Part shown: positions 12,347-30,768 of the stretch, piece after piece
How the letters are laid out: every line of letters begins with the position of its first letter
Numbering within the stretch: position 1 is the first letter of the stretch
Source: Nesterenkonia sphaerica
Lineage (GTDB): Bacteria; Actinomycetota; Actinomycetes; Actinomycetales; Micrococcaceae
Assembly (NCBI RefSeq): GCF_005771565.1
Contig: NZ_VAWA01000017.1
Location: 1 to 45,445, forward strand
Reading direction: 5' to 3'
Length of the DNA: 45,445 bases
Position numbers and translations under genes: made by a program
The notes under the pieces: model-generated
Seen by the model: the letters and a program-made list of their open reading frames with translations, nothing else
What the model was told of the DNA's origin: nothing
Database searches by the model: none

Positions 12347-12391
12347 TGGTCGGGCTAGCGGGATTTGAACCCACGACCTTCCGTCCCCCAG
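12347..12391 (-). repeat. left attachment repeat (orphan 3' half of tRNA-Pro)
   Basis: These 45 bases are identical to 30724-30768. On the minus strand they comprise the anticodon loop, the 3' anticodon strand, variable loop, T arm, acceptor 3' strand and encoded CCA of tRNA-Pro. No 5' half follows (the sequence diverges at 12392), so this is the tRNA remnant displaced by integration and not a working gene. Confidence 0.95.
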
Positions 12392-12585
12392 TCCGAAATG
12401 GTCCTCAAAGCTGGCATGGGGCCGCGTGCTTCGCCCCGTAGATGCAGGGTTGTGGACTGTTGAGAATGATGGTGTTGACGGGGGTATTCATGACCGGTTC
12501 GGACATTTTTCGTACCGGCAAGCCCAGGGCGCTCCGGTCACGCAGTGCTTGGGATGAGTTGCATGACCATGCAAGGATTGCGCGA
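12392..12585. other. element left end without a supported gene
   Basis: The stretch between the left att repeat and the first element gene holds a plus-strand open frame (12442-12702), but it runs into the antisense gene and resembles no family I know. No hairpin or repeat array stands out. Integrase arm-type binding sites would be expected at an element end, but I could not identify any. Confidence 0.4.
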
Positions 12586-13095
12586 CTATACAAGCCGAGG
12601 GGGCTCCCAATAGACAGAAGTCTCCGCGTCTGGATTGAGCACGGCCCCGACTCCTGCCACACTACGTGTTCCTTCCGGATCCGATTCGAGAATGATAGTT
12701 AGCGCCATTGCTGTCTGATCCGCATTGAGTACTGGAATGCCGCGCTCGTCACGTTCGAGATCATCAACGCGGTACAGCCGGACAACCTCATACAACGGTG
12801 CCTCGAATCGAACAGTCTCGCCTGGTGCTACACGTGCTGGCTCAATTCCGCACGATCGCACGAGTGGCCCTCGCGCCAGAGCGATCACTTCTGACACGTC
12901 GTCTCTGTGCGGATCGCCTGTAGCCAATTCTTCTACTATCACGTCAGGGTCGCGCCCTTGAAGCCTGTCGTAGTCGAGCAAGTGACGCACGACCGCCCGG
13001 CGAAAATTCGGTGTCATCTGATCCCAAACACTGTGCATGTCCCCGGCAAACAGATCCTCATGCCACCGTGTCGCTAGTAACTGCGGAGGCTCCAT
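12586..13095 (-). CDS. unknown cargo protein, possibly NTF2/SnoaL-like
   Basis: This is a 169-aa soluble protein with no signal peptide or membrane segment. The N-terminal half (TRWHEDLFAGDMHSVWDQMTP followed by a helical stretch) resembles the opening helices of NTF2/SnoaL-like folds, and the C-terminal half looks like beta strands (VRFEAPLYEVVRLYRV, ALTIILESD, VYWEPPRLV). No catalytic motif is recognisable. It stands alone at the left edge of the element, transcribed toward the att site, the usual place for passenger genes. The NTF2 suggestion is weak. Confidence 0.65.
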   Translation of the reverse strand: MEPPQLLATRWHEDLFAGDMHSVWDQMTPNFRRAVVRHLLDYDRLQGRDPDVIVEELATGDPHRDDVSEVIALARGPLVRSCGIEPARVAPGETVRFEAPLYEVVRLYRVDDLERDERGIPVLNADQTAMALTIILESDPEGTRSVAGVGAVLNPDAETSVYWEPPRLV

Positions 13096-13322
13096 GCCAA
13101 GAGGCTACCCTGCTCACAGCGTGGGAGATAGGCCTACTGTCCCGGTACGGTACTCTCAAACTGGCGAACTGGCACGACACTATCTGGCGACGGCAGGCAG
13201 GGCATCCTGACGACGCGTAGCTCGCCAAGCACTTCGAGCGGATGCGCGAGGTGACCCGAGATGCAGTGTTTGCGTGACTGTTCCTGAAGTCCTCAATACT
13301 CGTTCATAGAAAGGTGGCTTGA

Positions 13323-13760
13323 ATGAGTGAAACGCAGCTGGAAGAGCCCGAGCTGGACTACGCATACCTCGCGGAATACGCACGCACCGAGAGAGGCGCG
13401 ATAACGGCAGTAGGCGCGAGTTACACGCGTGTTCTGACAGACCTCCTGCCCATGAGTTTCACGGTATATGTCGCGGGGCGCTTTCGAGCGCCTGCAAAAG
13501 GCCAACCATTTGAAGTCGACATCACCTTTGGGCGGGCCGACGACGACGAAACCATTCGTCTAGGCAATACCTTTAATCCTGCTACAGCGCCCGACTCTTA
13601 CCGTGATCGAGTCGGCTTGACTTTCGCCGTGGGCATTCCGGCGGAAGTTGAAAACGAGGGTCTTCACAAAGTCGAGATATTCGCCAATAACAGGTCTGTC
13701 AGGAAGCTCTTCTTTGACGTTGATCTAGACCGGCAAGGTGCAGCGTCAGGTGACCGCTGA
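13323..13760 (+). CDS. DUF6941-like protein
   Basis: This is a 145-aa soluble protein resembling DUF6941. It opens with a DYAYLAEYAR segment, followed by ITAVGASYTRV, a strand pattern matching the opening of that family, and a beta-rich remainder (MSFTVYVAGRF, PFEVDITFGRADDD, GLTFAVGI, GLHKVEIFANN). It looks like an all-beta sandwich with no catalytic residues. ATG 13323 has GAAAGGTGG upstream. The stop overlaps the start of the DUF4258 gene (TGATG), so the pair is translationally coupled and likely functions together. Family assignment is from pattern memory and moderate; function unknown. Confidence 0.72.
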   Translation: MSETQLEEPELDYAYLAEYARTERGAITAVGASYTRVLTDLLPMSFTVYVAGRFRAPAKGQPFEVDITFGRADDDETIRLGNTFNPATAPDSYRDRVGLTFAVGIPAEVENEGLHKVEIFANNRSVRKLFFDVDLDRQGAASGDR

Positions 13761-14008
13761 TGCTGCTAAAGTTCAGCCCCCACGGCAGGCGCCGAATGCA
13801 GGAGCGGGCGATCGCCGAAAGCGACATCCTGTTCACGCTGCGCGAGCACAACCGGGTCAGATACCCCTCAAGGGAGGGGGGAGGAAAATGGGTGTACGAA
13901 GGGCGAAACGCCTCGGGGAGGCGCCTCGCCATAATTACGCGCCCCGCGGTCGAAGACCTGCCTCCAGGCGGTCGGTTGACGATCATTACGGCATACTGGC
14001 GGGATTAA
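13760..14008 (+). CDS. DUF4258 protein, RelE-like small protein
   Basis: This is an 82-aa basic protein with the DUF4258 pattern: FSPHGRRRMQERAIAESDILFTLRE (the H-x-R-x-R-M-x-E-R helix), KWVYEGRNASGRRLAIITR and a final TIITAYW strand. DUF4258 proteins are small RelE/BrnT-like folds, and many sit in toxin-antitoxin-like pairs. Here it is translationally coupled to the DUF6941-like gene and followed 78 bases later by a DUF2283 gene, a partnership I recall from other genomes. Toxin activity is an inference from fold and context. Confidence 0.8.
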   Translation: MLLKFSPHGRRRMQERAIAESDILFTLREHNRVRYPSREGGGKWVYEGRNASGRRLAIITRPAVEDLPPGGRLTIITAYWRD

Positions 14009-14086
14009 AGCGACCAATAAGGTCTATAGTGGAAACCTGTAGCACAGCGTGATTCGCTCACTGTTGCTCATCAACTAGGAGGAACG

Positions 14087-14428
14087 ATGCACACGCACGG
14101 ATCGGCATTCTTTGATACCGAGCTGCAGGTGGGGTATGCCTATGTCGTGGACAAACCGGCTATGCGGACAGTGGAGTTCAGCGACGTTATTCTGGTGGAT
14201 TTGGCCGAAGATGGAGATGTTGTCGGACTCGAGGTTCTCGCTAGGCTGCACGAACTCCCCGTGAGCGAAATGGCGTCTGAGTACGCTTGGAGCGCTGGCA
14301 CATGGCGCGCTGTTCACGCCGCGGCCAAGGACTTGGAGAGCCTGATGAAAGCACAGCCTACGACGGGCACGGACGGCGTCTACCGCCCAAGAACTACTTG
14401 GGGTACTCGCGATCTCGTAGAAGCCTGA
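14087..14428 (+). CDS. DUF2283 protein, possible antitoxin partner of DUF4258
   Basis: This is a 113-aa protein. Residues about 8-55 follow the DUF2283 pattern: FFDTELQVGYAYV at the N terminus, VEFSDVILVDLAEDGDVVGLEVL in the middle. The acidic C-terminal tail (about 60-113) is longer than in minimal members and could wrap a partner protein. A strong AGGAGG lies 5-10 bases before ATG 14087. Proximity to DUF4258 suggests an antitoxin or regulator role, which is inference. Confidence 0.8.
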   Translation: MHTHGSAFFDTELQVGYAYVVDKPAMRTVEFSDVILVDLAEDGDVVGLEVLARLHELPVSEMASEYAWSAGTWRAVHAAAKDLESLMKAQPTTGTDGVYRPRTTWGTRDLVEA

Positions 14429-14817: not shown

Positions 14818-15552
14818 ATGAAAAGAGCGCTTGCAGGCCTCAGCGCCACCGGCTTGTTCCTCACGGCCTGCGGTGGTGTCACCGAAGATGACCACTATGA
14901 ATCCGCGGACGAGCTTGTCGAGGCGTACGAGTCCGAGGGTGGGGAGTGCAATGAGCCCCAGACTGAAACGTCTTTCGATGACCACGGGGATGCTGTCCGA
15001 TGCAGCTCTGGTGTCTCTATCTACACGTGGACCGACCCGCCTCGCCGAGAGGCTGACGTCCCGGAAGAACTCCAAGAGGTGCTCAAGCTTCACGCTGGCG
15101 AGGAACGCCGGCATGTCGCGCACCAGACCTGGGCCTTCTCAGTAAAAGGTGAGGACAGCGCAGAGTGGGTACATGAGCGCTTCGGCGGACAAATCCTATC
15201 GGCCGATGCTTACCGGGACTACGTCAGCCCACTGCACAACGCATATGAGGAATGCAATGACCCTGAGTGGGATGAAGCGCTTACCTACGACGAAACTTAT
15301 GAAGTGATGACTGTGAACGGTGCGTATCAAAAACTCGGCGACCACCTGAGTGCCGCCGGGACGGCTGCTGGCATCGTCTGGTTTTGCGTGGAAGATGAGC
15401 TATCTGTCCCCCAGCATGTGCAAGACCACATTGGCTCAACAACATCCCTGCAGGGTCGTCAGGATGCGCGGTGGGATGAATTCTCAGCGTCATGGAGCTA
15501 CCACCCCAACAATGGGCTGAACCTCACGCTTGAATGGGAGGATGACTCGTAG
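14818..15552 (+). CDS. secreted lipoprotein, element cargo
   Basis: This is a 244-aa lipoprotein precursor. It has a short basic N terminus (MKRA), a hydrophobic stretch and lipobox LTAC with the modified Cys at about residue 18. The mature part is acidic and contains four further cysteines that could form disulfides, with no enzyme motif. It would be anchored on the outer face of the cell membrane. Temperate phages and satellites often carry lipoproteins that block superinfection by other phages; that role is inferred from context only. Its 3' end overlaps the excisionase-like fragment by 11 bases. Confidence 0.78.
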   Translation: MKRALAGLSATGLFLTACGGVTEDDHYESADELVEAYESEGGECNEPQTETSFDDHGDAVRCSSGVSIYTWTDPPRREADVPEELQEVLKLHAGEERRHVAHQTWAFSVKGEDSAEWVHERFGGQILSADAYRDYVSPLHNAYEECNDPEWDEALTYDETYEVMTVNGAYQKLGDHLSAAGTAAGIVWFCVEDELSVPQHVQDHIGSTTSLQGRQDARWDEFSASWSYHPNNGLNLTLEWEDDS

Positions 15553-15688
15553 GTCGGTCTACCGACCCCTGCTCCGCAACGGTGACCTCGAGGGGATCCA
15601 GATTGGCGGCCGCGGCCAATGGCGGATCGAAGACGCGAAGCTGGAGGAGTACATCGAGCGGATGTACGAGGCGCAGCGGGGCGGCTAG
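15542..15688 (+). pseudogene. N-terminally truncated HTH_17/excisionase-family fragment
   Basis: A 48-codon frame starting with ATG 15542 inside the lipoprotein 3' end encodes the C-terminal half of an excisionase-family (MerR-like) DNA-binding domain. It shows SVYRPLLRNGDLEG, then IQIGGRGQWRIE, then a terminal helix KLEEYIERMYEA. The missing part is the first helix of the domain (normally about 20-25 residues such as L-T-V-E-E-V-A), replaced by MTRR. Similar full-length proteins are chromosomal in many Micrococcales. The fragment marks a recombination scar; it could still be translated through the overlap, but probably cannot bind DNA normally. Confidence 0.72.
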
Positions 15689-15733
15689 CTGAGCAACGGT
15701 CTTGCTCCTAAGTATGAGGCTAGTCCGAAAGGC

Positions 15734-16192: not shown

Positions 16193-16195
16193 CAC

Positions 16196-16669
16196 TCAGC
16201 TCTTTGCCATTTCATTCTTGACAAGATCCACGCTGACCGCCCGGCCATGAGTATGTAACAGCCCCAATTCTTGAACGCGCTCCGCTGAGGGGTCATGATC
16301 ATGATCATGGCGAAACCCTACGAACTTCCAACGTCCAAACTCCTCAGTCTGCATACGGGCCGTTGGAAGTTCGGCACCGGCTGCCGGCGAATCTTGGCGG
16401 GCTTCAACGGGCCGGGAACTCAGGATGAGCTCGAAGCCAAGCGCGTGAAGCGTGTCGGCGAGCTTGCGAACAGTAATGTTCCGCTCCCCTCGGAGCCGAT
16501 TGGACACCTCGCTCTTGGAAACATTCAGGGCTTTCGCTAGAGCCGTGCGAGTAATCCCGGATCGCTCCAATGCGTCAGCAATGAGTTCGCTGGAATCGAC
16601 CATCGCCGCTTCTTGAGCATAGGTACGCCTGTACTGCGGATCTTTCATGTCCTGATCAAAGAGTCCCAT
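16196..16669 (-). CDS. HigA-type XRE antitoxin
   Basis: This is a 157-aa protein with a helix-turn-helix of the XRE class at about residues 30-75 (DALERSGITRTALAKALNVS, then KSEVSNRLRGERNITVRKLADTLHALGF). It has an extended C-terminal part that includes a His/Asp-rich run (HDHDHDP). ATG 16669 lies inside the 3' end of the toxin gene (14-bp overlap), giving the toxin-first order typical of higBA. I rejected the frame extending to 16768 because it lies wholly inside the toxin gene. It would neutralise the toxin and repress the operon promoter upstream of 17057. Confidence 0.85.
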   Translation of the reverse strand: MGLFDQDMKDPQYRRTYAQEAAMVDSSELIADALERSGITRTALAKALNVSKSEVSNRLRGERNITVRKLADTLHALGFELILSSRPVEARQDSPAAGAELPTARMQTEEFGRWKFVGFRHDHDHDPSAERVQELGLLHTHGRAVSVDLVKNEMAKS

Positions 16670-17057
16670 GACCGTGTCCCTTCGCCCTACGCTCACAGTC
16701 CCGATAGATGGAAACTGCTTTTTCAATCTCCCGAGGCACTTGGTTATTGCTCGGCTTCTTGGTGCCATGCGTTAAGTGCCAACAGCCGGCTTTCTCTACA
16801 ACGTAAATTCGATACGGTTGCGGCTTAAGCTCAAGCACAACAATATCCCCTAAGACCTTCAGTGTTTTGATGTTCTCTTGAGACTTTATGCGGTGGCCGT
16901 TTTTATGCATTTCCAACCACCTCTGGAGACGAGTGCGCGACTTCTCGGGAAGTTTCGATACATACTTATCGGCATCGGAACGTCCTGACTCTCGCACGCA
17001 CAGCCACTCGGTATCACTGTCTTCATAGACTCGCTTCCAAGCCCCTAGTGCAGTCAT
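16656..17057 (-). CDS. HigB/Gp49-type mRNA interferase-like toxin
   Basis: This is a 133-aa protein of the HigB / phage-derived Gp49-like family (RelE superfamily). Family features are the basic central region with GHRIKSQENIKTLKVLGDIVVLEL, the strand YRIYVVEKAGCWHL, and the C-terminal HGTKKPSNNQVPREIEKA helix, where the Lys-Lys-Pro and REIE pattern is diagnostic. RelE-superfamily toxins cleave mRNA on the ribosome. It overlaps the XRE antitoxin by 14 bp. Such modules stabilise mobile elements or act in phage defence. Codon use looks AT-richer than the neighbouring genes. Confidence 0.82.
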   Translation of the reverse strand: MTALGAWKRVYEDSDTEWLCVRESGRSDADKYVSKLPEKSRTRLQRWLEMHKNGHRIKSQENIKTLKVLGDIVVLELKPQPYRIYVVEKAGCWHLTHGTKKPSNNQVPREIEKAVSIYRDCERRAKGHGHGTL

Positions 17058-17325
17058 AACTTAACTGCTCCCATCAAACATAGCACGTGCGCGCAACCTA
17101 CTGTGACCTACTTCATACTTGCCACCATACATTGACCTCCACAGTCGGAGGCGCGCAATGTGGGGCGCCTTCTCGCCGAGACGCGTAACTTCGTCAGACA
17201 CACAAACAGCACCCCACCCAGACCAAAGTCCAAGTGGGGCGTCTGTTCATGTACGGTGCAACGGCTACGGCATCGTGGAACGTACTATAGGTCACCCTCC
17301 ACGGGGTCGTATGAGGCTGGAGCTC

Positions 17326-17955
17326 TTACTCCTGGGAGGCTGCCTCGGAGGCCTCGCCGCCGCCCTCCGGCGCCCCTTCGGGCGTGACGATGCGGCGGGT
17401 GGTGAGCCGGTCTGGGGTCTCCTGCGAGGCCAGGAGTATGGTCTGCTTGATCCGCGCCCATTGGCCCCCTGCTAGTGGGCCCTGGGAGAGCTTGTGCCAC
17501 TGGTCAGCAGTGAGGCGCTCGCCGCCGATGGTTCCCAGCTTGGCCAGCGCTATGCAGGTGCCGACGATGGACTGGTCCCACTGGCGAGTGCTGTTCTTCT
17601 CGACCTGGGCGTACTCGGCAGCGAAGGCTTCGGCGTCGGTGTCGCTGAGCGCCTCAACGGTTACCTCAGCCTTGGAGGCCCGGATCCTGGCTTCCAGCTC
17701 CGCTTGCTGCTCCTGGAGCTCTGCGGCCTGCTGGGCGGCCTCCTGGGGGTCCTGAAGGCTTGCACCCTTGTTGTGGGCCTTGATGCGCTCCTGCAGCTCC
17801 TGAGCCTCTCCCAGGAGGCCTGGATCCAGGTAGACGGTGAGGGTGCGAGTATGGCGTTTGCCCTCGCCCAGCCACCTGTTCAGGTCGAAGGTGGGCGGGT
17901 CTTCGGTCGCGGCCTCGGCCTGAGTGTGGGTCTCGGTGGTGAGGTTCTCTGTCAT
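17326..17955 (-). CDS. unknown protein downstream of the tape measure gene
   Basis: This is a 209-aa soluble protein. The first 40 residues are polar and acidic, then FDLNRWLGEGKRHTRTLTVYLDP, a coiled-coil-prone Gln/Glu/Ala-rich section (about residues 70-105, QEAAQQAAELQEQQAELEAR-like), and a compact helical domain (about 110-185). ATG 17955 follows GGATAGGAAA. It is the last gene of the run tape measure, 149-aa protein and this one. Its position and coiled coil would suit a tail-assembly or scaffold helper, but chaperones usually precede the tape measure gene, so function is open. Confidence 0.72.
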   Translation of the reverse strand: MTENLTTETHTQAEAATEDPPTFDLNRWLGEGKRHTRTLTVYLDPGLLGEAQELQERIKAHNKGASLQDPQEAAQQAAELQEQQAELEARIRASKAEVTVEALSDTDAEAFAAEYAQVEKNSTRQWDQSIVGTCIALAKLGTIGGERLTADQWHKLSQGPLAGGQWARIKQTILLASQETPDRLTTRRIVTPEGAPEGGGEASEAASQE

Positions 17956-17980
17956 GGGGTTTCCTATCCGGTGGTGGGGG

Positions 17981-18430
17981 TTACTGCTCGATGGGCTCAG
18001 CGTGTTCTTTGGGCAGCCATTCAATGCCGGTGAAGCTCGGAAGGACGCCTATGGAGATCAGGTGCCCCATGGTGAGGACTTCCTCCAGGTGCATGCCTCG
18101 CTGATTGACGTAGGTGCCGATGATGGGCCCCTGGCCTCGCAGAAAGTCCTCATAGGTCACCTGAAAAGCGCAGGTGCCTACTGGCCAGGCGCTCGCCGCC
18201 TCGCCGGGGTCGTCCCAGAACACGTTCACCGCCATCACGTACCGTTCGCCCTGCCTCTCGAACGGGTCCGGAATGTCGATGCGGTGGTGACAGAACATCT
18301 CCAGGTTGCGGTTCTTCCCGGCCCGGATCCGCGCCGCAGACGCTTTGTCCACGCGATCCCACAGGCGGGCTACCTCGTCGATTGTGGGTGGCTCGTTTGG
18401 CTTCCAGCGGGTGAAGTCGATGTGGTGCAT
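17981..18430 (-). CDS. unknown 149-aa protein following the tape measure gene
   Basis: This is a soluble protein with a mixed alpha/beta look: HIDFTRWKPNEPPTIDEVARLWDRVDKASAARIRAGKN-like N terminus, then GERYVMAVNVFWDDP and a C-terminal ISIGVLPSFTGIEWLP. No family recognised and no membrane segment. ATG 18430 has AGGGGA at a good distance, so the frame extending to 18517 is not needed. It lies 100 bases after the tape measure stop and 25 bases before the 209-aa gene, so all three are probably co-transcribed. Confidence 0.72.
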   Translation of the reverse strand: MHHIDFTRWKPNEPPTIDEVARLWDRVDKASAARIRAGKNRNLEMFCHHRIDIPDPFERQGERYVMAVNVFWDDPGEAASAWPVGTCAFQVTYEDFLRGQGPIIGTYVNQRGMHLEEVLTMGHLISIGVLPSFTGIEWLPKEHAEPIEQ

Positions 18431-23034: not shown

Positions 23035-23482
23035 CTCGCTCTCCCTGTCTGCTGCTGGCTCTTGCATGTGGTGACCTGCCCCTGGTGTGATGCCTTCCCC
23101 TCTGGGGAAGGAGGTCAAGTTTCATTGTAGCCTTCCCACAACGAATTGACCCGTAAATAGTAGAGTTCGGCCAAGTCGGAAGGTAGACTGAGGGTGCTGC
23201 TCTCGCCGGGTCGTTTCTGACCTTCAGCGCCCCTCCGGGCCCCCCTGTCCCCCGGAGGGGCGCTTCTCTGTGTAGACAGGGCGGCGAGGCTCAAGCCGTC
23301 TGCGGTGCGCCAGAAGGGTGGCTTTCGGGCCTGGCGTGTGGATTCAACCCTTGCAGGTCGTCAGCGAGTGCAGGGACTGCGAGCGCCGAGGGTCTGGCGT
23401 TGCCGGGGTCCCGGACTACCGGTGAGCCAGCGTCAGTGTTGCCGTGCCACGGGAGCAACCCGCAATCGGACCCAAGGGCCGC
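23035..23482. other. intergenic region between the terminase-like and lipoprotein genes
   Basis: No protein gene is supported. The stretch holds the leader of the small-terminase-like gene, a minus-strand -10-like TACAAT at 23124-23129 and the hairpin at 23227-23263. The right part (23264-23482) is GC-rich without clear coding signal. By position it is also a place where a packaging recognition site could lie, though nothing in the sequence proves that. Confidence 0.5.
23227..23263 (+). terminator. strong GC-rich hairpin terminator
   Basis: A perfect 13-bp inverted repeat (GCGCCCCTCCGGG / CCCGGAGGGGCGC) with an 11-base loop is followed on the plus strand by TTCTCT. It could stop minus-strand read-through from the lipoprotein gene, or end an unseen plus-strand transcript. 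Confidence 0.7.
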
Positions 23483-24322
23483 CTATTGCTTCTCCCAGGT
23501 GCCGCAACGGTCCGTGAAGAACGAGTGGTCAGTTTCGGCGATGTCTACCTCAGCACGGAACCCGCTCCGCATGAGGTTGTTCTCAACGATGTTCCCAGCG
23601 GCGTCCAGGCGCTCCCAGTAGCACCCATCGAACCCTGATTCAGACTCTGTGACATAGAAGCCCGGCGGCATGTCCTCGCCCACTCGGTAAGAGCCGCTGC
23701 CGAAGCTGCCATCCGGCTCTTGAGGCTCTCTTGCCTCATTGACCTCAGCGATCCGCTCTTCGACCTCTCCGCGGTCAGGATGGTCTGGGCATAGCACCAG
23801 TGCGCCCTGGACTTCCTCCTGTTGGCCCTCGCTCCACGGCAGGCCCCCAGATCGGGTGCTGTTGTCACCCAGCAAGGGAGTGGCGCAGATTCCGTACAGA
23901 ACGCGCAGTGACTCTTCCTTGTCGTAGTTCGCAGTCTCGAGTGCTTCGCGTTCTGTCTCGGTCAGGTCGTAGGAGCCAAAGCTGGAGTTATAGCTCGCCT
24001 CGCACCGGACATCGTCCCGGGCGTCGAAGCCCTCCCAGGCGGCTTCAAAGCTCTCATAGGACCCCAAGTCAGAAGGTTCGGTTTCTTCTGTGTCCATCTC
24101 GCGACAGGAGATGCTGAGGTCTTCAGCGGGACTGACCGAGGCAGGCGACGCGCTCGCGGTTGTGGCCTCCGGTGCTGGCGAGGAAGTCTCAGCGACTGGA
24201 GACGCGGTCGTCTCCGCCGCTTCGGTCGCTGGCTGAGCAGGCGCATCATCTTCGGTCTCGCCACATCCAGCCAGGGCGCCAGCGAGCGTGGCTGCCATCG
24301 TCGCCAGGATAGCCCTACGCAT
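23483..24322 (-). CDS. secreted lipoprotein with low-complexity linker
   Basis: This is a 279-aa lipoprotein precursor with lipobox LAGC (Cys at about residue 20), followed by an Ala/Thr/Ser/Pro/Glu-rich linker to about 65. A Cys-containing middle domain and a compact C-terminal domain follow (about 205-279), with SGSYRVGEDMPPGFYVTE, GCYWERLDAAGNIVENN and a final DRCGTW. That C-terminal block recurs in many actinobacterial secreted and prophage-encoded lipoproteins. It is probably displayed on the cell surface during the integrated state; superinfection exclusion is a plausible but unproven role. Confidence 0.8.
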   Translation of the reverse strand: MRRAILATMAATLAGALAGCGETEDDAPAQPATEAAETTASPVAETSSPAPEATTASASPASVSPAEDLSISCREMDTEETEPSDLGSYESFEAAWEGFDARDDVRCEASYNSSFGSYDLTETEREALETANYDKEESLRVLYGICATPLLGDNSTRSGGLPWSEGQQEEVQGALVLCPDHPDRGEVEERIAEVNEAREPQEPDGSFGSGSYRVGEDMPPGFYVTESESGFDGCYWERLDAAGNIVENNLMRSGFRAEVDIAETDHSFFTDRCGTWEKQ

Positions 24323-24954
24323 GACGCCAGCCTATAACCAGCGAGCGCCGAACGGGAGGTGAGGACGACAATTCCTTGACGGCTTCGCAGGCCTCAGGGG
24401 GTCGCCTCTTCGCTCTTCGCCCTCCACCGTGCCCACGCGGGCCGGTCTCCGAGGTCTCGGTAGGGAATCCGGTCTGATGTCGCCTCACGGCCAACCGGGG
24501 TTGCTGCTCGGCTCCCCCCGTTCGGATCTTCATCACGCGGTCACTCTTGTCTGGGTTCAGGTGTGGAATTATCACGGTGCTTCTCCTGCTCTCTTTCTCT
24601 GTCTGTGAATGCCTTGACTGCCGTGTGAGCCAGAGCGTGCCGAGCGCGCCGCCCCTTATAAGGGGCGCGGCGCACTGGCGCACTACCGCCCCGGCGCACT
24701 TTTGGCGCACTCTGGCGCACTGGCTGATATGGCTCTGCATCCCTGTAATGACGGGCTTTTGAGTGCGCCAAATCTTCCCGGCGCACTGGCTGTATTTGAG
24801 TGCGCCAAAGACCCTCCCAAAAACCCCAGTGCGCCGGCGCACTCCGGAGCGCTCGACGCGCATCCCGATAGGCTGGTCTTGGATCCCCCTACTTCCCTGT
24901 AAAGGCGGGGCTTTTGGTGTCCCGGCGCAGTCTCGGGGCGGTGCTGGGGAGGTG
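24323..24954. other. non-coding region containing the element origin
   Basis: Open frames here are either reading through the iteron array or lack start signals. The right two-thirds carry the iterons and an 18-bp palindrome. The left third (24323-24600) has a minus-strand frame ending at 24315 with a basic, Arg/Gly-rich translation and no family match, which I did not accept as a gene. Confidence 0.5.
24650..24843. repeat. iteron array, candidate replication origin
   Basis: Ten copies of the 8-mer GGCGCACT occur in 175 bp. Seven are direct: 24669, 24677, 24693, 24704, 24714, 24780 and 24836. Three are inverted (AGTGCGCC): 24762, 24799 and 24828. Copies 24828-24843 form a perfect 16-bp palindrome, and two inverted copies lie inside identical 15-mers TTTGAGTGCGCCAAA (24758 and 24795). 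An 18-bp palindrome CGCCCCTTATAAGGGGCG (24650-24667) with a TATA core flanks the array. The array lies 110 bases past the replication ATPase gene, the usual rep-ori arrangement of plasmids and phage satellites. Confidence 0.8.
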
Positions 24955-26325
24955 TTAGAACACAGCATGCTGACTCAACTCTGGTTCGAGGGTGCCTTTC
25001 GCCCCCATCTTTCCCAGCCAGACCACTCCCGTGGGGGTGAGGTCGTGCAGCGTGGCGTTCTTGCCCCCGGCCCGCGTGACGATGTAACCCTGCTCGAGAG
25101 CCCAATTGATGCCTGCCTGGATTGCAGCCCTGGTGTGGTCTTCCTTCAGTGCATCCTGGATCTTTCGCTTAGACAGCTCCGCGCTGGGGTGTTCTTGAAG
25201 ATGGGTGAGCACGGTGATCGCGGCGGCCTGGGCCTCTGCTGTGAGCCGGTCCCGTTTGCGGCTGCCTCCGGCGATGACGAGCCGCCCCCGGTCGTCTCTT
25301 TCAACCCTCGCCTCGGGCACGTTGACGTCCCGACCGTAGGCGGAGAAGTACCGATCGCTAGTCATGTCGTCGGCCTTGCCGAGCACGCCCTGCCACATGG
25401 CCGCGTTGGAGGCTCTCAGGGCGCTGTCACCGCGGGCGCGCTCGCCGTTGTGCCCGGTGTGGTGAACGATCATCGACTCGGCCGCGCCCATGTCCGCCAT
25501 GAGCTCGTCCCAGGCGGTGAGGAATCTTCCAGCCTCTCGGTTCTCGTCCAGGCCGAGCGCGTCCAGCATGGGCCGCAGGTTGTCGAGGATGACCACCTGT
25601 CCGGGCCCAGCCTCCAGGTGTCGGGCCCAGCGCTCCCGTGTCTCGGGTTCGAGGATGTTGAAGCTGGAGAGGTGGCCTTGGAGAGTAATGGGCCGGATCA
25701 GTTCGGTGTTGGTGATCTGTTGACCGTCGAGCCACCGGGCGAGTGTGGAAGCTGTCATTTCGGTATCGATCAGCAGCACCGCCGGGGGTTCCTTCTCCAC
25801 TGCGAACCGACCGAGGAAGGGGTCCCCGTCTGCCAGCGACCTGAGCAGGTTCGCCACCGTCGAGGTCTTTCCGAACTTCGGGGCGGCGGTGAACAGTACC
25901 CGTGACATTGCTGGCCACAGCCCATCTATCAGGTACGGAGTCTGATCGTCGAGGTGCTCTTCAATGAACGCATCCAGGGTCGGCAATGCAGGGAGTGGCA
26001 CATCCCTGGCGTCTTCGGCTGCGAGCGCCTCACGGGCTTGCTTGCGGCGCCGCTGAGAGGCGATCTCTTCATCAAGCTGGGACCGTTCGATCTTCTCGGG
26101 GAGGTCGGTCAGCTTGGGTATGTCGACGGCTATCGGCTCGCCCTCGATGGTCGCTGCGAGCGCGTCCGCTGCTGCGTAGGGCACCAGGAAGTCCCGTGCA
26201 TATCTGGCGTGTGGGGAATCTTGGCTGGCCTTCATGATCGCCCGGTGTGACTCCCAGAACCTCTCCTGGACGGGCTCGGGGAGTCTGTCGACGATGTTGC
26301 GGATGCTGTGGGTGAAGTCGATCAT
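24955..26325 (-). CDS. RepA/AAA_25-type replication ATPase
   Basis: This is a 456-aa protein. The RecA-like ATPase core has Walker A APKFGKTS (residues 148-155), an acidic LLIDTEM strand, Walker B VVILDNL (244-250) and the sensor-like HHTGHNGERARGDSALRASNA. This is the AAA_25/RepA hexameric helicase type found in plasmids and mobile elements. A C-terminal winged-helix-like domain (about 370-430, ELSKRKIQDAL...) may bind DNA. The first 110 residues are helical, and no primase motif is visible, so it would act as a helicase or helicase-loader at the adjacent iterons. It overlaps the upstream gene (ATGA). Confidence 0.87.
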   Translation of the reverse strand: MIDFTHSIRNIVDRLPEPVQERFWESHRAIMKASQDSPHARYARDFLVPYAAADALAATIEGEPIAVDIPKLTDLPEKIERSQLDEEIASQRRRKQAREALAAEDARDVPLPALPTLDAFIEEHLDDQTPYLIDGLWPAMSRVLFTAAPKFGKTSTVANLLRSLADGDPFLGRFAVEKEPPAVLLIDTEMTASTLARWLDGQQITNTELIRPITLQGHLSSFNILEPETRERWARHLEAGPGQVVILDNLRPMLDALGLDENREAGRFLTAWDELMADMGAAESMIVHHTGHNGERARGDSALRASNAAMWQGVLGKADDMTSDRYFSAYGRDVNVPEARVERDDRGRLVIAGGSRKRDRLTAEAQAAAITVLTHLQEHPSAELSKRKIQDALKEDHTRAAIQAGINWALEQGYIVTRAGGKNATLHDLTPTGVVWLGKMGAKGTLEPELSQHAVF

Positions 26326-26756
26326 GCGGCGTTTCCTCGCTCCATGATCTGGCGGGCTCGCTCACGCTCGCTGCGAGAGAATCCGGCTAATGGGTCACCG
26401 TTGAGCCTGCGCAGCTCGGTTATCCTGAGGCGCGGATCCGGGGGGATTTCTACGTGCTCAATCCCGACGATGTAATACTCCTGGGTGCCGTGGGTGTCTG
26501 CGTATCGGCCGGCGCAGTGCGCTATGCGGTGTTCACGTCTGCTCTTGAGGCTCACCCCGTGGGTGTGGGTCCTGGCGCACCAGGGGCACCGGACCTCTAC
26601 GCCCAGGTGGAACCGTGGCATGAAGTTCTCGTCGAACCCAAGACCTCGGATCCAGTAGGCGCGGATCACCTCAGCTTCACGGCACCCCGGCCTCGTGCCA
26701 GCGGTGAACACCACATTGTGGCCGCCCCTGTTCCTGTCCTGCTGCTGCCTGCTCAT
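26322..26756 (-). CDS. small zinc-ribbon-like protein of the replication operon
   Basis: This is a 144-aa protein with CPWC (about residues 57-60), followed by THTHG and HRIAHC, a likely zinc-binding CxxC...H...C arrangement. This pattern recurs in short actinobacterial mobile-element proteins encoded just upstream of the RepA-like ATPase. The C-terminal third (ITELRRLNGDPLAGFSRSERERARQIME) is helical and charged. Its stop overlaps the ATPase start, so the two products are coupled. Function unknown; a replication accessory is plausible. Confidence 0.75.
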   Translation of the reverse strand: MSRQQQDRNRGGHNVVFTAGTRPGCREAEVIRAYWIRGLGFDENFMPRFHLGVEVRCPWCARTHTHGVSLKSRREHRIAHCAGRYADTHGTQEYYIVGIEHVEIPPDPRLRITELRRLNGDPLAGFSRSERERARQIMERGNAA

Positions 26757-26860
26757 GGGCCTGTCGTCCCTTCCTGCGCTGCTTTACCGTGTGGAGCGCT
26801 TCTAGTCCTGTCAGTCGTACCCGGCGCCGGGAGAGCCCCTGCGTGGCCCCGGCGGTGCTG

Positions 26861-27151
26861 TCATTTCCCTGCGGCCTTCCACTTACGGATCACGCCCCTG
26901 TGGCGAGAGCGCGTGCTGCTGGTGGTGTAACCGGCCGGTGTGATGATCCCGAGCCTGCGAGCGCTGCTGAACGCGCCGCCGACCCAGTTCGGGTGAGCGG
27001 GCTCCCCGACGAGCCGCCGCAAGTCGTCGGCGGTGAAGGTGGTGTCGTAGGTCCGCGCTCGCCGCGCCAGGGCTTCGATGCTTTCCCTGGCGTCAGCGAG
27101 CCAGCTGGCCTTGGCCTCTCCTGGCGCTTCTAGCGACATCGGAGTAGTCAT
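26861..27151 (-). CDS. small winged-helix-like phage protein
   Basis: This is a 96-aa protein with helical N terminus (ADARESIEALARRARTYD), FTADDLRRLVGEPAHPNWVGGAFSSARRLGII and TPAGYTTSSTRSRHRGVIRKWK at the end. The latter part matches a common phage-encoded wing region in which a Gly-Tyr-Thr-Thr-Ser wing precedes basic residues. I chose ATG 27151 because the upstream extension is Pro/Arg/Ser-rich antisense sequence. DNA binding is probable, target unknown. Confidence 0.72.
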   Translation of the reverse strand: MTTPMSLEAPGEAKASWLADARESIEALARRARTYDTTFTADDLRRLVGEPAHPNWVGGAFSSARRLGIITPAGYTTSSTRSRHRGVIRKWKAAGK

Positions 27152-27167
27152 GCCCTCAACTCGCCCT

Positions 27168-27392
27168 TCACCGGTCTGGCCGGGCCCAGGGGTGGTCAAC
27201 GATGAGCTTGGGAACCCCGTTGACGTCGGCGATGCGGTGCAACCCTGTGCTGACTGCCGCGCTCTTGAGGTTCTCCACGGTGTAGCCGGTGTGGGCTGCG
27301 ATCCGTTCGACCATGGCCGCATCCCAGCCGGTGATGCTGACAGTGGCCTCCTGCAGGGCCTGGGCTTGCGCCTCTGGCATCCGCTCACCCAT
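27168..27392 (-). CDS. unknown 74-aa protein
   Basis: This is a small soluble protein: ALQEATVSITGWDAAMVERIAAHTGY, then LKSAAVSTGLHRIADVNGVPKLIVDHPWARPD. The start at ATG 27392 overlaps the end of the ImmA-like gene by eight bases, and the longer frame to 27626 lies inside that gene. The arrangement of helix, helix and short strand could be a DNA-binding or partner-binding module. No family recognised. Confidence 0.6.
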   Translation of the reverse strand: MGERMPEAQAQALQEATVSITGWDAAMVERIAAHTGYTVENLKSAAVSTGLHRIADVNGVPKLIVDHPWARPDR

Positions 27393-28284
27393 CACGGTCA
27401 CCTCCTGCCCCGACGGTGGCCAGTTCGCGCTCGCGGTCGAACAGGTGGCCGTGGTCTGCGGTCCAGGCGTCGACACGGTCAGCCTGGGCGATGAGGAACG
27501 CGGCCAACTGGCGAGCCTGCTCTGGGGTGGCGTGGAAGCCGCCGCTGCAATCACGAAGCGCCCATGGCAGGTCAATCTCCAGCCCCATGCCTGGATCCAG
27601 CCGCTCTTGTCCCCCGAGGGTGCCATTCAAGGACGGAGAGACCCTGATGGTCGTGTCGGCAATCTCGAACCGGGTCGGGGCGAAGGAATGGATGTCGTCA
27701 TCGTCGTCACGTCCGCAGAGGCCATCCCAGTCGATGCAGCCCTCTGGGTGCCACTGTCCAGCGACTCTGGCGTAGTCCCGTGCCGTGCTCGGCAGCACGC
27801 GGCAGAGCCGGAAGACGCGCTGCGGGTCGTGCTTCTGGCATTCCTCCCAGACGGGGCCGATCACTTCCCAGTCTTCGGTTGTGATGATCATCCGAGCGGC
27901 CATCGTGTGGGCTTCCTCGCTGGTGTAACCACCGGGGCTGTTGTCTGTGAGCCTGGCGTGAGCGAGCATCACGGCGAGGGTGTCGCGGCGCTGTACGTGC
28001 GCCAGACCGGCCAGCAGGTCGATGGTTCGGGTATTCGCGTTATATCCACCCCAGTACCCTTCGGGAAGCTCGGGGTGATCTTCGACCTTCACCCCGATAT
28101 GTGAGGCGAGGGTTTCGAGGTCGGCGACGGTGAGGCCGGTCGGTGCGAACCCTGCGGGCACAGGCGTATCGTTGGTCATGAGCGCTGCCTTTCTTGGGTG
28201 GTCGTTCTCAGCGGTCCGGATATCTGCTTGGCGGTGGAGTCCGGGCCGCTGCTCTGTTGGCTGGGTGGTTGCGGTGGTGCTCAT
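27385..28284 (-). CDS. ImmA/IrrE-like protein with degenerate metal site
   Basis: This is a 299-aa protein resembling the ImmA/IrrE zinc-peptidase family. The segments NTRTIDLLAGLAHVQRRDTLAVMLAHARL and EEAHTMAARMIITTEDW line up with the family's strand, HExxH helix and following E-x2-A-x2-A helix. The HELxH position reads VMLAH, losing the first His and the catalytic Glu. Active ImmA proteins cleave mobile-element repressors and trigger excision, so this may be a non-catalytic regulator. ATG 28284 overlaps the excisionase stop (ATGA) and has GGGAGGAAA upstream; an internal ATG at 28179 also has GAAAGG and could give a 264-aa form. Confidence 0.72.
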   Translation of the reverse strand: MSTTATTQPTEQRPGLHRQADIRTAENDHPRKAALMTNDTPVPAGFAPTGLTVADLETLASHIGVKVEDHPELPEGYWGGYNANTRTIDLLAGLAHVQRRDTLAVMLAHARLTDNSPGGYTSEEAHTMAARMIITTEDWEVIGPVWEECQKHDPQRVFRLCRVLPSTARDYARVAGQWHPEGCIDWDGLCGRDDDDDIHSFAPTRFEIADTTIRVSPSLNGTLGGQERLDPGMGLEIDLPWALRDCSGGFHATPEQARQLAAFLIAQADRVDAWTADHGHLFDRERELATVGAGGDRDG

Positions 28285-28520
28285 GCGGCGGTTTCCTCCC
28301 GGTGGGAGTTGAGCCAGTCAAGAGCGTCGGACTTATCGACATAGACGCGGCGCCCAATCTTGATCGTTTTTGGACCCGTGCCCTTGTGCCGCATCCAGCG
28401 CCACGTGGACTGAGGGATGCCGGTCATCTGCTCCAGGTCTGGGAAGCTCAGCAGTTCCGGGAAGCCCTGAGCTGATCCAGCGGCGTCGTGCCCGCTGGGG
28501 GTGCTGGTGGCGGTAACCAT
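28281..28520 (-). CDS. AlpA/HTH_17 excisionase
   Basis: This is a 79-aa DNA-binding protein with the excisionase (MerR-like, HTH_17/AlpA) pattern: LLSFPDLEQMTGIPQSTWRWMRHKGTGPKTIKIGRRVYVDKSDALDWL. Such proteins bend att DNA for excision and often act as the first activator of satellite genes. AAGAAAGG lies before ATG 28520. It is the first gene of the leftward transcript, faces the repressor across the divergent promoter pair, and its stop overlaps the next gene (ATGA). It is intact, unlike the HTH_17 fragment at 15542. Confidence 0.88.
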   Translation of the reverse strand: MVTATSTPSGHDAAGSAQGFPELLSFPDLEQMTGIPQSTWRWMRHKGTGPKTIKIGRRVYVDKSDALDWLNSHREETAA

Positions 28521-28588
28521 GCGGTGAGCCTTTCTTGTAGTTATCTTCCAACTCTTGCGGCGATATGGATGGATTATCGCTACTCATG

Positions 28589-28617
28589 ACTCTAACTTCA
28601 CTCCGCAACGGTGTCAA
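28589..28617 (-). promoter_or_regulatory. promoter of the leftward xis-rep operon
   Basis: On the minus strand TTGACA (28617-28612), a 17-base spacer and TAGAGT (28594-28589) form the best sigma-70-like promoter in the window. The start would lie near 28582, about 60 bases before the excisionase ATG. It stands back to back with the repressor promoter, 14 bases apart. Confidence 0.75.
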
Positions 28618-28631
28618 TCATCCACATATAC

Positions 28632-28660
28632 TTGTGTCGTGGTTGCGTGTTCGCTACAGT
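28632..28660 (+). promoter_or_regulatory. repressor promoter giving a leaderless mRNA
   Basis: TTGTGT (28632-28637), a 17-base spacer and TACAGT (28655-28660) place the transcript start at or within a base of ATG 28667. A CACA-N6-TGTG inverted repeat (28623-28636) covers the -35 and is a possible operator, as expected for an autoregulated repressor. Confidence 0.7.
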
Positions 28661-28666
28661 CCAAGC

Positions 28667-29407
28667 ATGTCCTATGCCACGAAACTCGATCAGGCGTTCC
28701 CGGAGAAGCTGAAATTACGGCGCCAACACCTAGGCATGTCCCAGCAGAAGCTCTCAGACACGCTCAAAGCCGATGATGTGCATTTGAGTAAGCACGCCAT
28801 CGCACAGATCGAGGTGGGTAAACGCGCTGTGAAGGTCGGGGAAGCGTTCATGATTGCCCAAGCACTGGAAACTGACCTTGATGGATTGCTTCGCACCCCT
28901 TCGCCCCTCTCACAGGTCGAGGAAAGAGGCTGGGACACGTTCGCACCGTGGCAGAGCGCTCATCGGTCAGGCACGAAACTGCTAGAGACCATCTCCGAAT
29001 TTCACGAGGTCCTGCCTTCCATTGACGAGCACGTCATGGGCGCGGAAGTAGCAGGGCGATACCGGGCCGCACTCGCCGACGTGAACGACAGGACAGGGCC
29101 AGTCAAAGCGGCCATGTATGCGCTCTGCGAGTGGGCTTTCCAGCGACACGGTCTTCACAAGTACCTGCCACCAGGGGCCACCGAAGATGCAGCGGAACTG
29201 GCTGGCTCAAGCGGTGACACTCTTGAAGATCACCTGATCCCGGACGACAAAGTCCACGCCGTGCTGCGGTACGCCCAGCGCAACCCTGAGGACGTGAAAT
29301 CCCACTGGTGGGGGTCTGACCTCCTGCGCCTCCACGAGGCACATGGCAACCTCCCGACATTCGCCGGCGAAGAGCCGTCCGCGAGCGCGGGAGCCACCGA
29401 TGGCTAA
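28667..29407 (+). CDS. XRE-family repressor of the element
   Basis: This is a 246-aa cytosolic regulator. The helix-turn-helix of the XRE/Cro class is at residues about 10-70 (LKLRRQHLGMSQQKLSDTL, then HLSKHAIAQIEVGKRAVKV). The rest, to residue 246, is a helical domain with conserved-looking Trp/Phe residues that could sense a signal or mediate dimerisation. No LexA-type Ala-Gly cleavage site with Ser/Lys is seen, so it is not obviously SOS-cleaved. ATG 28667 coincides with the predicted transcript start. Its stop overlaps the integrase start by eight bases, so immunity and integration are expressed together, much as stl and int sit side by side in satellites. Confidence 0.88.
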   Translation: MSYATKLDQAFPEKLKLRRQHLGMSQQKLSDTLKADDVHLSKHAIAQIEVGKRAVKVGEAFMIAQALETDLDGLLRTPSPLSQVEERGWDTFAPWQSAHRSGTKLLETISEFHEVLPSIDEHVMGAEVAGRYRAALADVNDRTGPVKAAMYALCEWAFQRHGLHKYLPPGATEDAAELAGSSGDTLEDHLIPDDKVHAVLRYAQRNPEDVKSHWWGSDLLRLHEAHGNLPTFAGEEPSASAGATDG

Positions 29408-30650
29408 GCGATACGTTCCAGGCACCACGCACATTCAAGACCTTTGGTACAAGCGTGACAAGACCCCGTCCCAGCGACACAAGCGGGGTAAGAGGTGGCG
29501 AGCCTTCTGGGTCGATAATCTCGGCCAGGAACACACCGCGATGTTCGGCACGAAAGAGGAAGCCAAAGCGCACCTCGCCGACGTCACCGCATCCCTGAAG
29601 ACGCACACCTACGTCAATCCCGAGCACGGAAAGGTCACCGTCGGTGAACTCGTCGAGCACCACTTAGACGCCTTCGTGGGGAAACCCAAGACCCTGGGCA
29701 CAAAACGGTCCCTGGCGAAGACACAGGTGCTCCCCCGCTGGCAGCACGTGCCAGTCCGCGCCGTAGAAGCCTCAGACGTGCGAGCCTGGATCGCCGCCAT
29801 GATGCGCGGCGAGAATGACCGGAAACCGGTCAGCTCGAAGTGGGCACGGGATGCCGCCATGCTGTTGCATGCCGTGCTGAAAGATGCCGTCGCTGACCGT
29901 CGGATCGCCTTCGACCCCATGGTCACAGTGAAGCTCCCGTCGAAGGGCAGGCCCCGCGACCAGTACCCCCTGACGATAGAAGAGGTCTATGCGCTCGCCG
30001 ACGCCATGACCATCAAAGACGATGATGGCCAGCCCGAGAGTGGCGTAGTGCAGGTGGACCGGGCACTGCTGCTCACACTGTGCTTCACCGGGATCAGGGT
30101 TGGCGAAGCGCTGGGCCTGACTGCGAGCGCAGTGGACTTCAACCGGCGCCGGATCCACATCAGGCGCACTTACGGCCAGGATGAGCACGGCCGCACCATA
30201 GAGTCCACACCGAAGTCTCACGAATCCCGCTGGGTGCCGATCCCCGCCCAGCTCATGGGCGAACTGCTCCCACTTGTGGAAGCACGCACCGGCAAGCAAG
30301 ACATCTTCGTGGGTCCCCGCGGTGGCACGGTCCGGGCCGATAACTGGCGCAACCGGGTCTTCACTCCTGCGCTGGTCGACTGCGACCTCTACGACCCCGA
30401 CAGTCCGCGTGTGGTGCACGACCTGCGGCACACCTACGCCTCACTGGCAGTCCGGGCCGGGGCGAACGTGAAAGCGCTGCAGAGAGCCATGGGGCACGCC
30501 AGCGCGTCCATCACCCTGGATGTGTACTCACACCTGTTCGACGACGACCTTGAAGCGCTCGGCGAGAGCCTCGGGAAACTCAAGCCAAAACCGGCCCAGC
30601 CAAAACCCGTTCGTACCCATTTCGTACCGGCGTCTCAGCCAGCCTCTTAG
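29400..30650 (+). CDS. int: tyrosine-recombinase integrase
   Basis: This is a 416-aa site-specific recombinase. It has an N-terminal AP2-like arm-binding region (AFWVDNLGQEHTAMFGTKEEA), a SAM-like core-binding domain (about residues 75-180) and a catalytic domain with Arg233 (TGIRVGEALG), Lys272, His340 and Arg343 (HDLRHTYAS), His366 (GHASASI) and nucleophile Tyr376 (DVYSHLF). All six catalytic residues are present. ATG 29400 overlaps the repressor stop. The gene ends 74 bases before the right attachment repeat in tRNA-Pro, the standard position for an integrase that recombines at the tRNA 3' half. Confidence 0.96.
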   Translation: MAKRYVPGTTHIQDLWYKRDKTPSQRHKRGKRWRAFWVDNLGQEHTAMFGTKEEAKAHLADVTASLKTHTYVNPEHGKVTVGELVEHHLDAFVGKPKTLGTKRSLAKTQVLPRWQHVPVRAVEASDVRAWIAAMMRGENDRKPVSSKWARDAAMLLHAVLKDAVADRRIAFDPMVTVKLPSKGRPRDQYPLTIEEVYALADAMTIKDDDGQPESGVVQVDRALLLTLCFTGIRVGEALGLTASAVDFNRRRIHIRRTYGQDEHGRTIESTPKSHESRWVPIPAQLMGELLPLVEARTGKQDIFVGPRGGTVRADNWRNRVFTPALVDCDLYDPDSPRVVHDLRHTYASLAVRAGANVKALQRAMGHASASITLDVYSHLFDDDLEALGESLGKLKPKPAQPKPVRTHFVPASQPAS

Positions 30651-30676
30651 CGGCGCTCGCCGCCAAGCATAGAGAA

Positions 30677-30714
30677 ACCCTCTACTTCCCTGTGTTGGTG
30701 GGCTTGTAGAGGGT
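30677..30714 (+). terminator. integrase terminator
   Basis: A perfect 9-bp inverted repeat ACCCTCTAC / GTAGAGGGT with a 20-base loop starts 27 bases after the integrase stop and ends ten bases before the right att repeat. It mirrors the hairpin beyond the left att site. Confidence 0.65.
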
Positions 30715-30723
30715 CTGTGATGC

Positions 30724-30768
30724 TGGTCGGGCTAGCGGGATTTGAACCCACGACCTTCCGTCCCCCAG
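30724..30768 (-). repeat. right attachment repeat within tRNA-Pro
   Basis: This is the second copy of the 45-bp att core (identical to 12347-12391), covering the anticodon loop to the encoded CCA of tRNA-Pro. The sequence beyond 30768 is the chromosomal 5' half of the tRNA. Confidence 0.95.

Follow-up and report, generated by a model that had tools for sequence, protein, structure and literature searches.

A probable phage satellite with its own tape measure and tail assembly chaperone genes, integrated in tRNA-Pro of Nesterenkonia sphaerica

Phage-inducible chromosomal island-like elements (PLEs) of Vibrio cholerae are satellites that encode a tape measure protein (TMP) and a tail assembly chaperone (TAC), as described in PMC12987554. 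According to the same paper, virions of PLE11 combine the capsid proteins of phage ICP1 with the TMP of the PLE in place of that of the phage, and deletion of tmp in PLEs lowers transduction by 96-99.9%. Satellites with a TMP beyond the PLEs had, in that account, not previously been reported, and a putative tmp is mentioned for PLE-like elements and some capsid-forming phage-inducible chromosomal islands (cf-PICIs). Closer by taxonomy, candidate phage-inducible chromosomal islands (PICIs) of Mycobacterium are defined, in PMC10654092, by an integrase and a major capsid gene, and some of them lie in tRNA genes. The literature we searched yielded no link between phage-inducible chromosomal islands and Micrococcales. 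Here, we describe an integrated element of 18.4 kb (positions 12347-30768) in Nesterenkonia sphaerica, found on a contig of 45,445 bp (contig C9; "the window" below means this whole analysed stretch) of a 2.79-Mb genome in 86 contigs. The element carries TMP and TAC genes behind a complete-looking integration and replication module, yielded no match to head genes, and is probably a phage satellite.

Direct repeats of 64 nt (91% identity) bound the element; their perfect 45-bp core forms the 3' terminus of tRNA-Pro(ggg) (30724-30800, minus strand), and the 45-bp attachment repeat that an initial annotation of this DNA had placed inside tRNA-Pro was thereby found at both ends. Together with the element's own integrase, these repeats provide the site-specific integration typical of PICIs. 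The same tRNA-Pro(ggg) is an integration hotspot in the genus, with sites in three other genomes: G009 (L128), G010 (L129, L130) and G017 (L131). These sites hold an unrelated island of 11.4 kb, a phage-like element of 38 kb and a stretch of 4 kb that is flanked by att-like repeats. The integrase and repressor, described as intact in the initial annotation, are recognised by Pfam and PHROGs (PF00589, phrog_1, HTH_3) and lie on the plus strand. In the opposite direction, the minus strand carries an AlpA-like HTH_17 excisionase gene (xis), early open reading frames (ORFs), an AAA_25 ATPase gene and an iteron-like array, in agreement with the divergent excisionase-replication operon proposed earlier. 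By gene order and iterons, a repressor thus stands opposite a xis/replication operon with a candidate origin, as in PICIs. The ATPase matches phage primase/helicase families in Pfam and PHROGs, and no primase domain was found in it. The array, which follows the ATPase gene, consists of 10 GGCGCACT octamers in both orientations; the window holds 13 such octamers against 2.96 expected, a count reached by 0 of 100 shuffles. The iterons of the initial annotation are thus present, and their role as an origin stays that of a candidate. Past the array, the minus-strand run continues with a lipoprotein-like gene, the gene of a packaging-region protein designated HGGxSTG, TMP, TAC and a toxin/antitoxin-like pair.

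Two tail genes went unmentioned in the initial annotation. The tape measure sets tail length, and the tail tube assembles round it with the TAC. The TMP of the element is recognised by three libraries, namely Pfam (TMP_3, PF20155, 2.7e-22), PHROG (phrog_1686, 9.8e-21) and NCBIfam (TIGR02675, tape_meas_nterm, above cut-off), and its residues 1-1249 align nearly end to end with a prophage TMP. At 1265 aa, it is about as long as its counterparts in two same-genus phages (1241 and 1243 aa; 1135-1452 aa in other close relatives), so that a TMP swap rather than a shortened tail would be expected. Recent transfer of the gene was considered and rejected: a 645-bp segment shares 79-80% DNA identity with both phages, but the phages share 80% with each other there, which indicates a conserved domain. 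Separately, a TMP 38% identical to that of the element lies downstream of a sheath-like gene in viral contig 3300028585_000536 (L156); with that gene read from sequence as contractile, the TMP family may cross tail types. The TAC homologue comprises the G part only. Same-genus phages have, upstream of TMP, a gene with which it shares 41-44% identity, its PHROG match alone being weak (0.0013). Its low-confidence model (mean pLDDT 65, three rows) matches annotated TACs of Arthrobacter phages in BFVD (best E 1.9e-6), and the listed matches to solved folds were all short, common helical ones. In having TMP and TAC genes of its own, the element shares a feature of PLEs.

Genes for DNA packaging, heads and lysis were searched for in the element. 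Seventeen marker proteins from same-genus phages and a capsid-bearing element, including the large terminase (TerL), portal, head, protease, lysin, capsid, HNH, DnaB, minor tail, FtsK and serine integrase, all went unmatched in the element at E ≤ 0.01. The same held at E ≤ 1 for the TerL encoded by another element in this genome. When 30 ORFs of the element were scanned against PHROGs, TMP and TAC were the only tail genes recognised, the tail tube not being queried separately. Below E 0.04, these scans gave no family for heads, TerL or lysis; the weakest matches seen were to the small terminase (TerS, 0.043) and portal (0.044). These scans agree with the initial annotation, which had reported no large terminase, portal, capsid or lysin. 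In these scans, the element showed neither the capsid, portal and terminases of a cf-PICI, nor the TerL, portal, head and lysin genes of a complete tailed prophage, nor the major capsid gene that accompanies the integrase in candidate Mycobacterium PICIs.

Same-genus phages provide the nearest comparison for the tail genes. HGGxSTG occurs in 3 of 30 genus genomes: that of the element, G021 and G002. The 48-kb phage G002:C2 encodes TerL, portal, head morphogenesis, protease, lysin, DnaB and integrase, while G021:C9, which is identical to IMG/VR entry L044, has TerL, portal and head homologues. Identity between the element and these two phages is 37-40% for TMP, 41-44% for TAC and 45-51% for HGGxSTG; the ATPase, xis and repressor have no match in G021:C9 (45.0-84.8 kb) or the whole of G002:C2. 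The arrangement differs as well. The start of HGGxSTG lies 707 bp from that of TMP in the element versus 14,333 bp in G021, 14,449 bp in G002 and 14,192 bp in prophage L045, and TAC follows TMP in the element, whereas it precedes TMP in G021 and G002. Across 14 other family genomes with both genes on one contig, HGGxSTG and TAC are 9.0-15.3 kb apart (same strand in 14/14), versus 4.4 kb in the element, where TMP lies between them. Simple deletion from a known prophage (G021:C9 or G002:C2) was rejected, as order and spacing are incompatible with it; a single deletion cannot give this order, so two or more rearrangements, or acquisition of a cassette, are needed. The initial annotation had named the same element inside a complete prophage as its refuting case, and no such copy was found in the collections searched.

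Sister elements were sought in several collections. Megablast of the element in phages and plasmids returned nothing, and a scan of viral contigs with the element-type HGGxSTG confirmed no copy. Viral contigs L161 and L160 are alike only in a 743-bp stretch round HGGxSTG (87% identity) and in two short pieces, and TerL, portal, head and TMP went unmatched in L161 with the queries used. None of 44 viral HGGxSTG loci, with flanks of at most 10 kb, contained a TMP by 3 or by 59 TMP queries. HGGxSTG is also present in 35 of 395 host-family genomes; in the ~10.5 kb downstream, fetched for 20 of them, TerL was matched in 16/20 and TMP in 1/20 (59 queries). A different signal comes from contig sizes: TMP and HGGxSTG homologues derive from contigs of matching size at 10400, 10840 and 14504 bp, with ~0.06 coincidences expected from jittered sizes. 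This matching used 119 TMP, 30 HGGxSTG and 117 ATPase values, leaving out the element's own contig, and a further coincidence at 4644 bp was not counted as it comes from different sources. At the phage spacing of ~14 kb, HGGxSTG and TMP could not both fit on contigs of 10-14.5 kb, and three such contigs appear, by their matched sizes, to pair the two genes (P0002/P0122 at 10400 bp, P0014/P0126 at 10840 bp and P0015/P0127 at 14504 bp). In a tree of HGGxSTG (all 31 plus 4 phage rows), the three matched versions group with the element and apart from the phages, with support of 99/96 when the long-branched P0130 is included and 91/92 when it is not. In the TMP tree (23 of 120 listed proteins), P0002 forms a pair with the element, and the remaining matched TMPs fall with P0013 in another group. 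Because the HGGxSTG versions group together and the TMPs fall in two groups, the HGGxSTG module seems to be a stable lineage in which the TMP has been exchanged, as far as these phylogenies can indicate.

These trees would also accommodate a separate actinobacterial lineage of tail-pirating satellites, with a stable HGGxSTG and TMPs drawn from different helper siphophages. Such a lineage is a tentative and rather doubtful suggestion; under it, chimeric tails would have arisen at least twice, and an element on contig C75 could even complement the one described here. The C75 element (~25.7-38 kb; L038, L155) is a second satellite-like element of the same genome; within ~12 kb it holds genes for an integrase, TerL, portal and capsid as well as small ORFs of connector size. 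It is cf-PICI-like and its ends were not found; no TMP was detected by PF20155 or PF10145 in the genome outside the window's element.

The role of HGGxSTG bears on how the element could be packaged. The position directly before TerL is the usual place of TerS. Among viral loci with HGGxSTG (n=44), 27 hold both HGGxSTG and TerL within the stretch, counted as they stand and possibly including redundant contigs, and the aligned start of TerL lies 39-121 bp behind HGGxSTG in 7 of these 27 (8 of 27 by ORF limits). Against the sequences of solved structures, a profile search returned a single match (E 0.37), and the HGGxSTG model matches two uncharacterised actinophage proteins in BFVD. We treat HGGxSTG as a packaging-region protein and a candidate TerS, a terminase role being suggested by gene position only.

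Opinion on the function of the tail genes is evenly poised. By analogy with PLEs, the satellite may supply its own TMP and TAC, as factors for tail length and tail initiation, to tails otherwise built by a helper, giving chimeric tails. In this scheme, the repressor would keep the element silent until entry or induction of a related siphophage, Int and Xis would excise it, and the ATPase would replicate it from the iterons. The HGGxSTG protein would then steer the TerL of the helper onto element DNA. Element TMP and TAC would replace or compete with those of the helper, and the helper tail tube would polymerise round the satellite TMP. The resulting particle, modelled on the V. cholerae PLEs, would have a helper head and a chimeric tail. 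Likely gains would include escape from TMP-targeting defences, matched DNA delivery and a drain on helper tail assembly.

Several results weigh against this reading. Regarding packaging, several genes, one of them encoding a helix-turn-helix (HTH) protein, separate HGGxSTG from TerL in phage BIM BV-113, and an annotated TerS stands between the two in phage LuckyBarnes; these intervening genes argue against HGGxSTG being TerS. Identification by fold also failed, the HGGxSTG model (pLDDT 80.7, pTM 0.47) having no PDB match at E ≤ 0.001. The small-terminase-like gene of the initial annotation survives as a gene (HGGxSTG/phrog_3678) that lies next to TerL in some phages, and as a small terminase it stays a candidate. 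Regarding relatives, a search for the design of the element in 19 ATPase loci, in 44 viral loci with HGGxSTG and in 20 of the 35 family genomes gave no second case. The pairing on three contigs is deduced indirectly, from matched sizes, and the TMP hit of P0002 (10400-bp contig) is partial at the start and differs at the end. A close sister should carry a similar ATPase, yet among the 120 ATPase matches listed, none shares a contig size or exceeds 50% identity (best 48-50%), and sister elements may therefore replicate differently. Finally, a resident-helper TMP was sought in the genome, where PF20155 hits the element only and PF10145 nothing.

The TAC adds a further difficulty. In the same-genus phages, TAC has behind it another ORF in a different frame, the T part, which is 55% identical between G002 and G021 and is also present in L045; a frameshifted T part was sought in the element and not found (best E 0.18). 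With the T part missing, either the helper TAC would have to supply tube recruitment or the element TAC acts against the helper. The second option leads to a quite unlikely alternative, a satellite or island in which TMP and the G-only TAC serve as decoys that titrate or poison the tail assembly of a helper or invader, outside any particles of the element itself. Following the G/GT logic of lambda, a TAC without T could bind TMP yet fail to recruit the tail tube, and the two lipoprotein-like genes that flank the module on both sides would suit such interference. A full-length TMP, however, exceeds what a decoy needs, and the packaging-region gene with which it is paired suggests a role in DNA packaging. 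Defence systems carried by satellites and prophages are known to target tail assembly, through Tai in PICIs (PMC11364771) and through Tab (PMC10884400), though these accounts, in the portions available, do not make the inhibitors TMPs.

A second set of observations ties the element to a phage ancestor and likewise counts against the satellite reading. The cargo block, one early ORF and a 100-bp host-gene fragment are common to the element and G002:C2, which matches the three cargo genes in order (38-44%), the early ORF (37%) and, weakly, the integrase (27%). Part of the element therefore descends from such a phage. Taken further, the element could be a rearranged prophage remnant. Deletion and rearrangement would then have stripped a mosaic siphophage of TerL, its head and lysis genes and most of its tail genes, with TMP, TAC and HGGxSTG as left-overs and an integration and replication end that alone still works. 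We consider this unlikely, though it is the strongest of the rival explanations. It would account for homologues of TMP, TAC, HGGxSTG, the ordered three-gene cargo and the early ORF in apparently complete same-genus phages, for loss of the T part, and for the shared host-gene 3' fragment beside the cargo, which suggests common phage ancestry; a decayed relative in G128 (L251), with stops in HGGxSTG, TerL not found and a TMP-like match 9.4-10.9 kb downstream, illustrates such decay. Decay is less easily reconciled with the 1265-codon TMP, TAC and HGGxSTG all being open and with att, int, xis and the ATPase looking intact, and the TMP-to-TAC order and 0.7-kb HGGxSTG-TMP spacing would need several rearrangements. 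HGGxSTG and TMP moreover recur as pairs on the three short contigs, by matched sizes, and the replication ATPase is of a type seen in integrated elements, whereas phage G002 has a DnaB-like helicase. A satellite partly assembled from phage genes is the reading we prefer.

The ATPase relatives place the replication module in a different setting. They occur in 10 of 98 related genomes (own included), at 17 genome loci, and on 2 viral contigs. A tyrosine or serine integrase is matched in the fetched stretches of 16 of these 19 loci; TMP, TAC and HGGxSTG are found in 0/19, and likewise in 0/7 of an earlier set that has three contigs in common with it. A capsid gene stands alongside the ATPase in L015, L061 and L066/L050, at least three distinct loci. 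L015 (G003) is an integrated element in which a serine integrase and a related ATPase occur together with an FtsK-like protein and a capsid gene of HK97 type. Judged by homology, the element combines a replication module known from integrated elements with siphophage genes for virion assembly. Occurrence of the ATPase family away from tail genes would also suit an ordinary integrative island that holds the phage genes as passive cargo (morons) and moves by generalised transduction or an unseen route, as would the hotspot character of a tRNA-Pro that also hosts the unrelated 11.4-kb island and the 38-kb phage-like element. This is the least probable explanation, and a very unlikely one, in view of three virion-assembly-related genes lying together, in the same strand and direction as the replication operon.

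The remaining features of the element are collected in the table, in which ORF limits are mechanical and likely start sites are our choice. Of the two lipoprotein-like genes, the one near the cargo has a 38% homologue at L045:9240-9935, and a TMP-linked exclusion gene is one guess for its role. The host-gene fragment 15581-15680 is matched in 28 of 30 genus genomes (own included); its position beside the same cargo in the element and G002:C2 is possibly that of a relic attachment site. A cos/pac site at these conserved 100 bp was rejected, the sequence being the 3' end of a chromosomal gene; RNA folds did not exceed those of shuffles. Known defence genes were sought by comparing 10 proteins with PADLOC, in which the antitoxin-like HTH alone matched.

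Table. Coordinates and supporting evidence for features of the tRNA-Pro element, in window positions
Feature	Position	Strand	Evidence
attL, 45-bp copy of tRNA-Pro 3' end	12347..12391		perfect match to 30724-30768
Uncharacterised ORF, 169 aa	12586..13095	-	without Pfam or PHROG match
DUF6941 cargo gene	13323..13760	+	44% to gene of same-genus phage G002:C2
DUF4258 cargo gene	13760..14008	+	40% to next gene of G002:C2
DUF2283 cargo gene	14087..14428	+	38% to next gene of G002:C2
Putative lipoprotein (label from N-terminus)	14818..15552	+	38% to TAC-TMP interval of prophage L045, opposite strand
3' fragment of chromosomal gene, BldC-like by reading	15581..15680	+	also beside DUF cassette of phage G002:C2
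Uncharacterised ORF, 153 aa	15734..16195	-	without Pfam or PHROG match
HTH antitoxin-like gene	16196..16768	-	HTH_3 above cut-off
Gp49/HigB-like toxin candidate	16656..17057	-	PF05973 20.7 bits, below 23.9 cut-off
TAC homologue, 232 aa, G part only	17326..18024	-	likely start 17955; phrog_15960 0.0013; homology; model
TMP, 1265 aa, open throughout	18530..22327	-	PF20155, phrog_1686, TIGR02675, homology
HGGxSTG packaging-region protein, candidate TerS	22369..23118	-	phrog_3678 7.8e-39; NF041373 above cut-off; likely start 23034
Putative lipoprotein (label by reading)	23483..24322	-	phrog_19157 0.00037
Iteron-like array, 10 GGCGCACT, candidate origin	24669..24843		octamer count versus shuffles
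AAA_25 replication ATPase, RepA/helicase-like	24955..26325	-	PF13481 8.6e-28
Partner gene of ATPase	26322..26756	-	homologue at 40-43% precedes ATPase in L015 and L049 as well
ORF, phrog_27658 (function unknown)	26861..27388	-	phrog_27658 7.1e-11; 40% match in tRNA-Pro phage-like element of G010
Early ORF, weak DUF6907	27385..28284	-	37% to stretch beside integrase of phage G002:C2
xis, AlpA-like HTH_17	28281..28520	-	Pfam/PHROGs
HTH_3 repressor	28565..29407	+	Pfam; likely start 28667
Promoter-like site upstream of xis, divergent region	28589..28617	-	weak: 1 site found versus 1.4 expected
Tyrosine integrase	29343..30650	+	PF00589 2.7e-16; phrog_1 1.2e-57; likely start 29400
attR, 3'-terminal 45 nt of intact tRNA-Pro(ggg) (30724-30800, minus strand)	30724..30768		

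An actinobacterial element that has both TMP and TAC, in which no head genes were found and which shows signs of TMP exchange, would support a convergent satellite strategy. It would provide a second system, this one built on siphophages, for asking what a satellite gains from its own tape measure, and it offers a simple search rule: integrase, TMP and TAC without TerL.

The phages G021:C9, G002:C2 and L045 have homologous TMP, TAC and HGGxSTG and, unlike the element, TerL, portal and head genes; in them TAC precedes TMP and HGGxSTG starts ~14 kb before TMP. L045 is the only one of the three noted with a lipoprotein-like gene, and G002 the one with the cargo and one early ORF. The candidate Mycobacterium PICIs and the loci L015, L061 and L066 belong to the same phylum as the element, and the latter three have a related ATPase; all carry a capsid gene, unlike the element, and neither TMP nor TAC was found in L015, L061 and L066. 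The cf-PICIs bring a partial virion assembly set, and a few have a putative tmp (PMC12987554, Extended Data Fig. 10b legend). According to PMC10690885, cf-PICIs encode capsid, portal and terminases, none of which was found in the element.

PICIs, including the staphylococcal pathogenicity islands (SaPIs), have the same order as the element, with integrase and repressor facing xis, replication genes and origin, and then a packaging-region gene. At 18 kb, the element is slightly above the ~10-15 kb given for PICIs in PMC11364771, and it differs in an AAA_25 ATPase without a recognised primase domain, in HGGxSTG instead of a proven TerS, and in the added TMP and TAC. The PICI-like satellite of the initial annotation is best read as a satellite, with modules that look intact, no motor, head or lysis gene found and a new order of the phage-derived genes, but not as a PICI with terS, since TerS is unproven and TMP and TAC are not a PICI hallmark. 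PLE11, PLE1 and PLE4 have their own TMP and TAC, as the element does, a likeness of design only. PLEs exploit the contractile-tailed ICP1, some of them with a baseplate hub (PMC12987554), and a hub was not seen in the element, which is further set apart by its tyrosine integrase in tRNA-Pro, candidate TerS and siphophage-type TMP and TAC. By analogy of design, the V. cholerae PLE is the closest working analogue of the element, which is PLE-like in one respect and PICI-like in layout and is filed as a member of neither.

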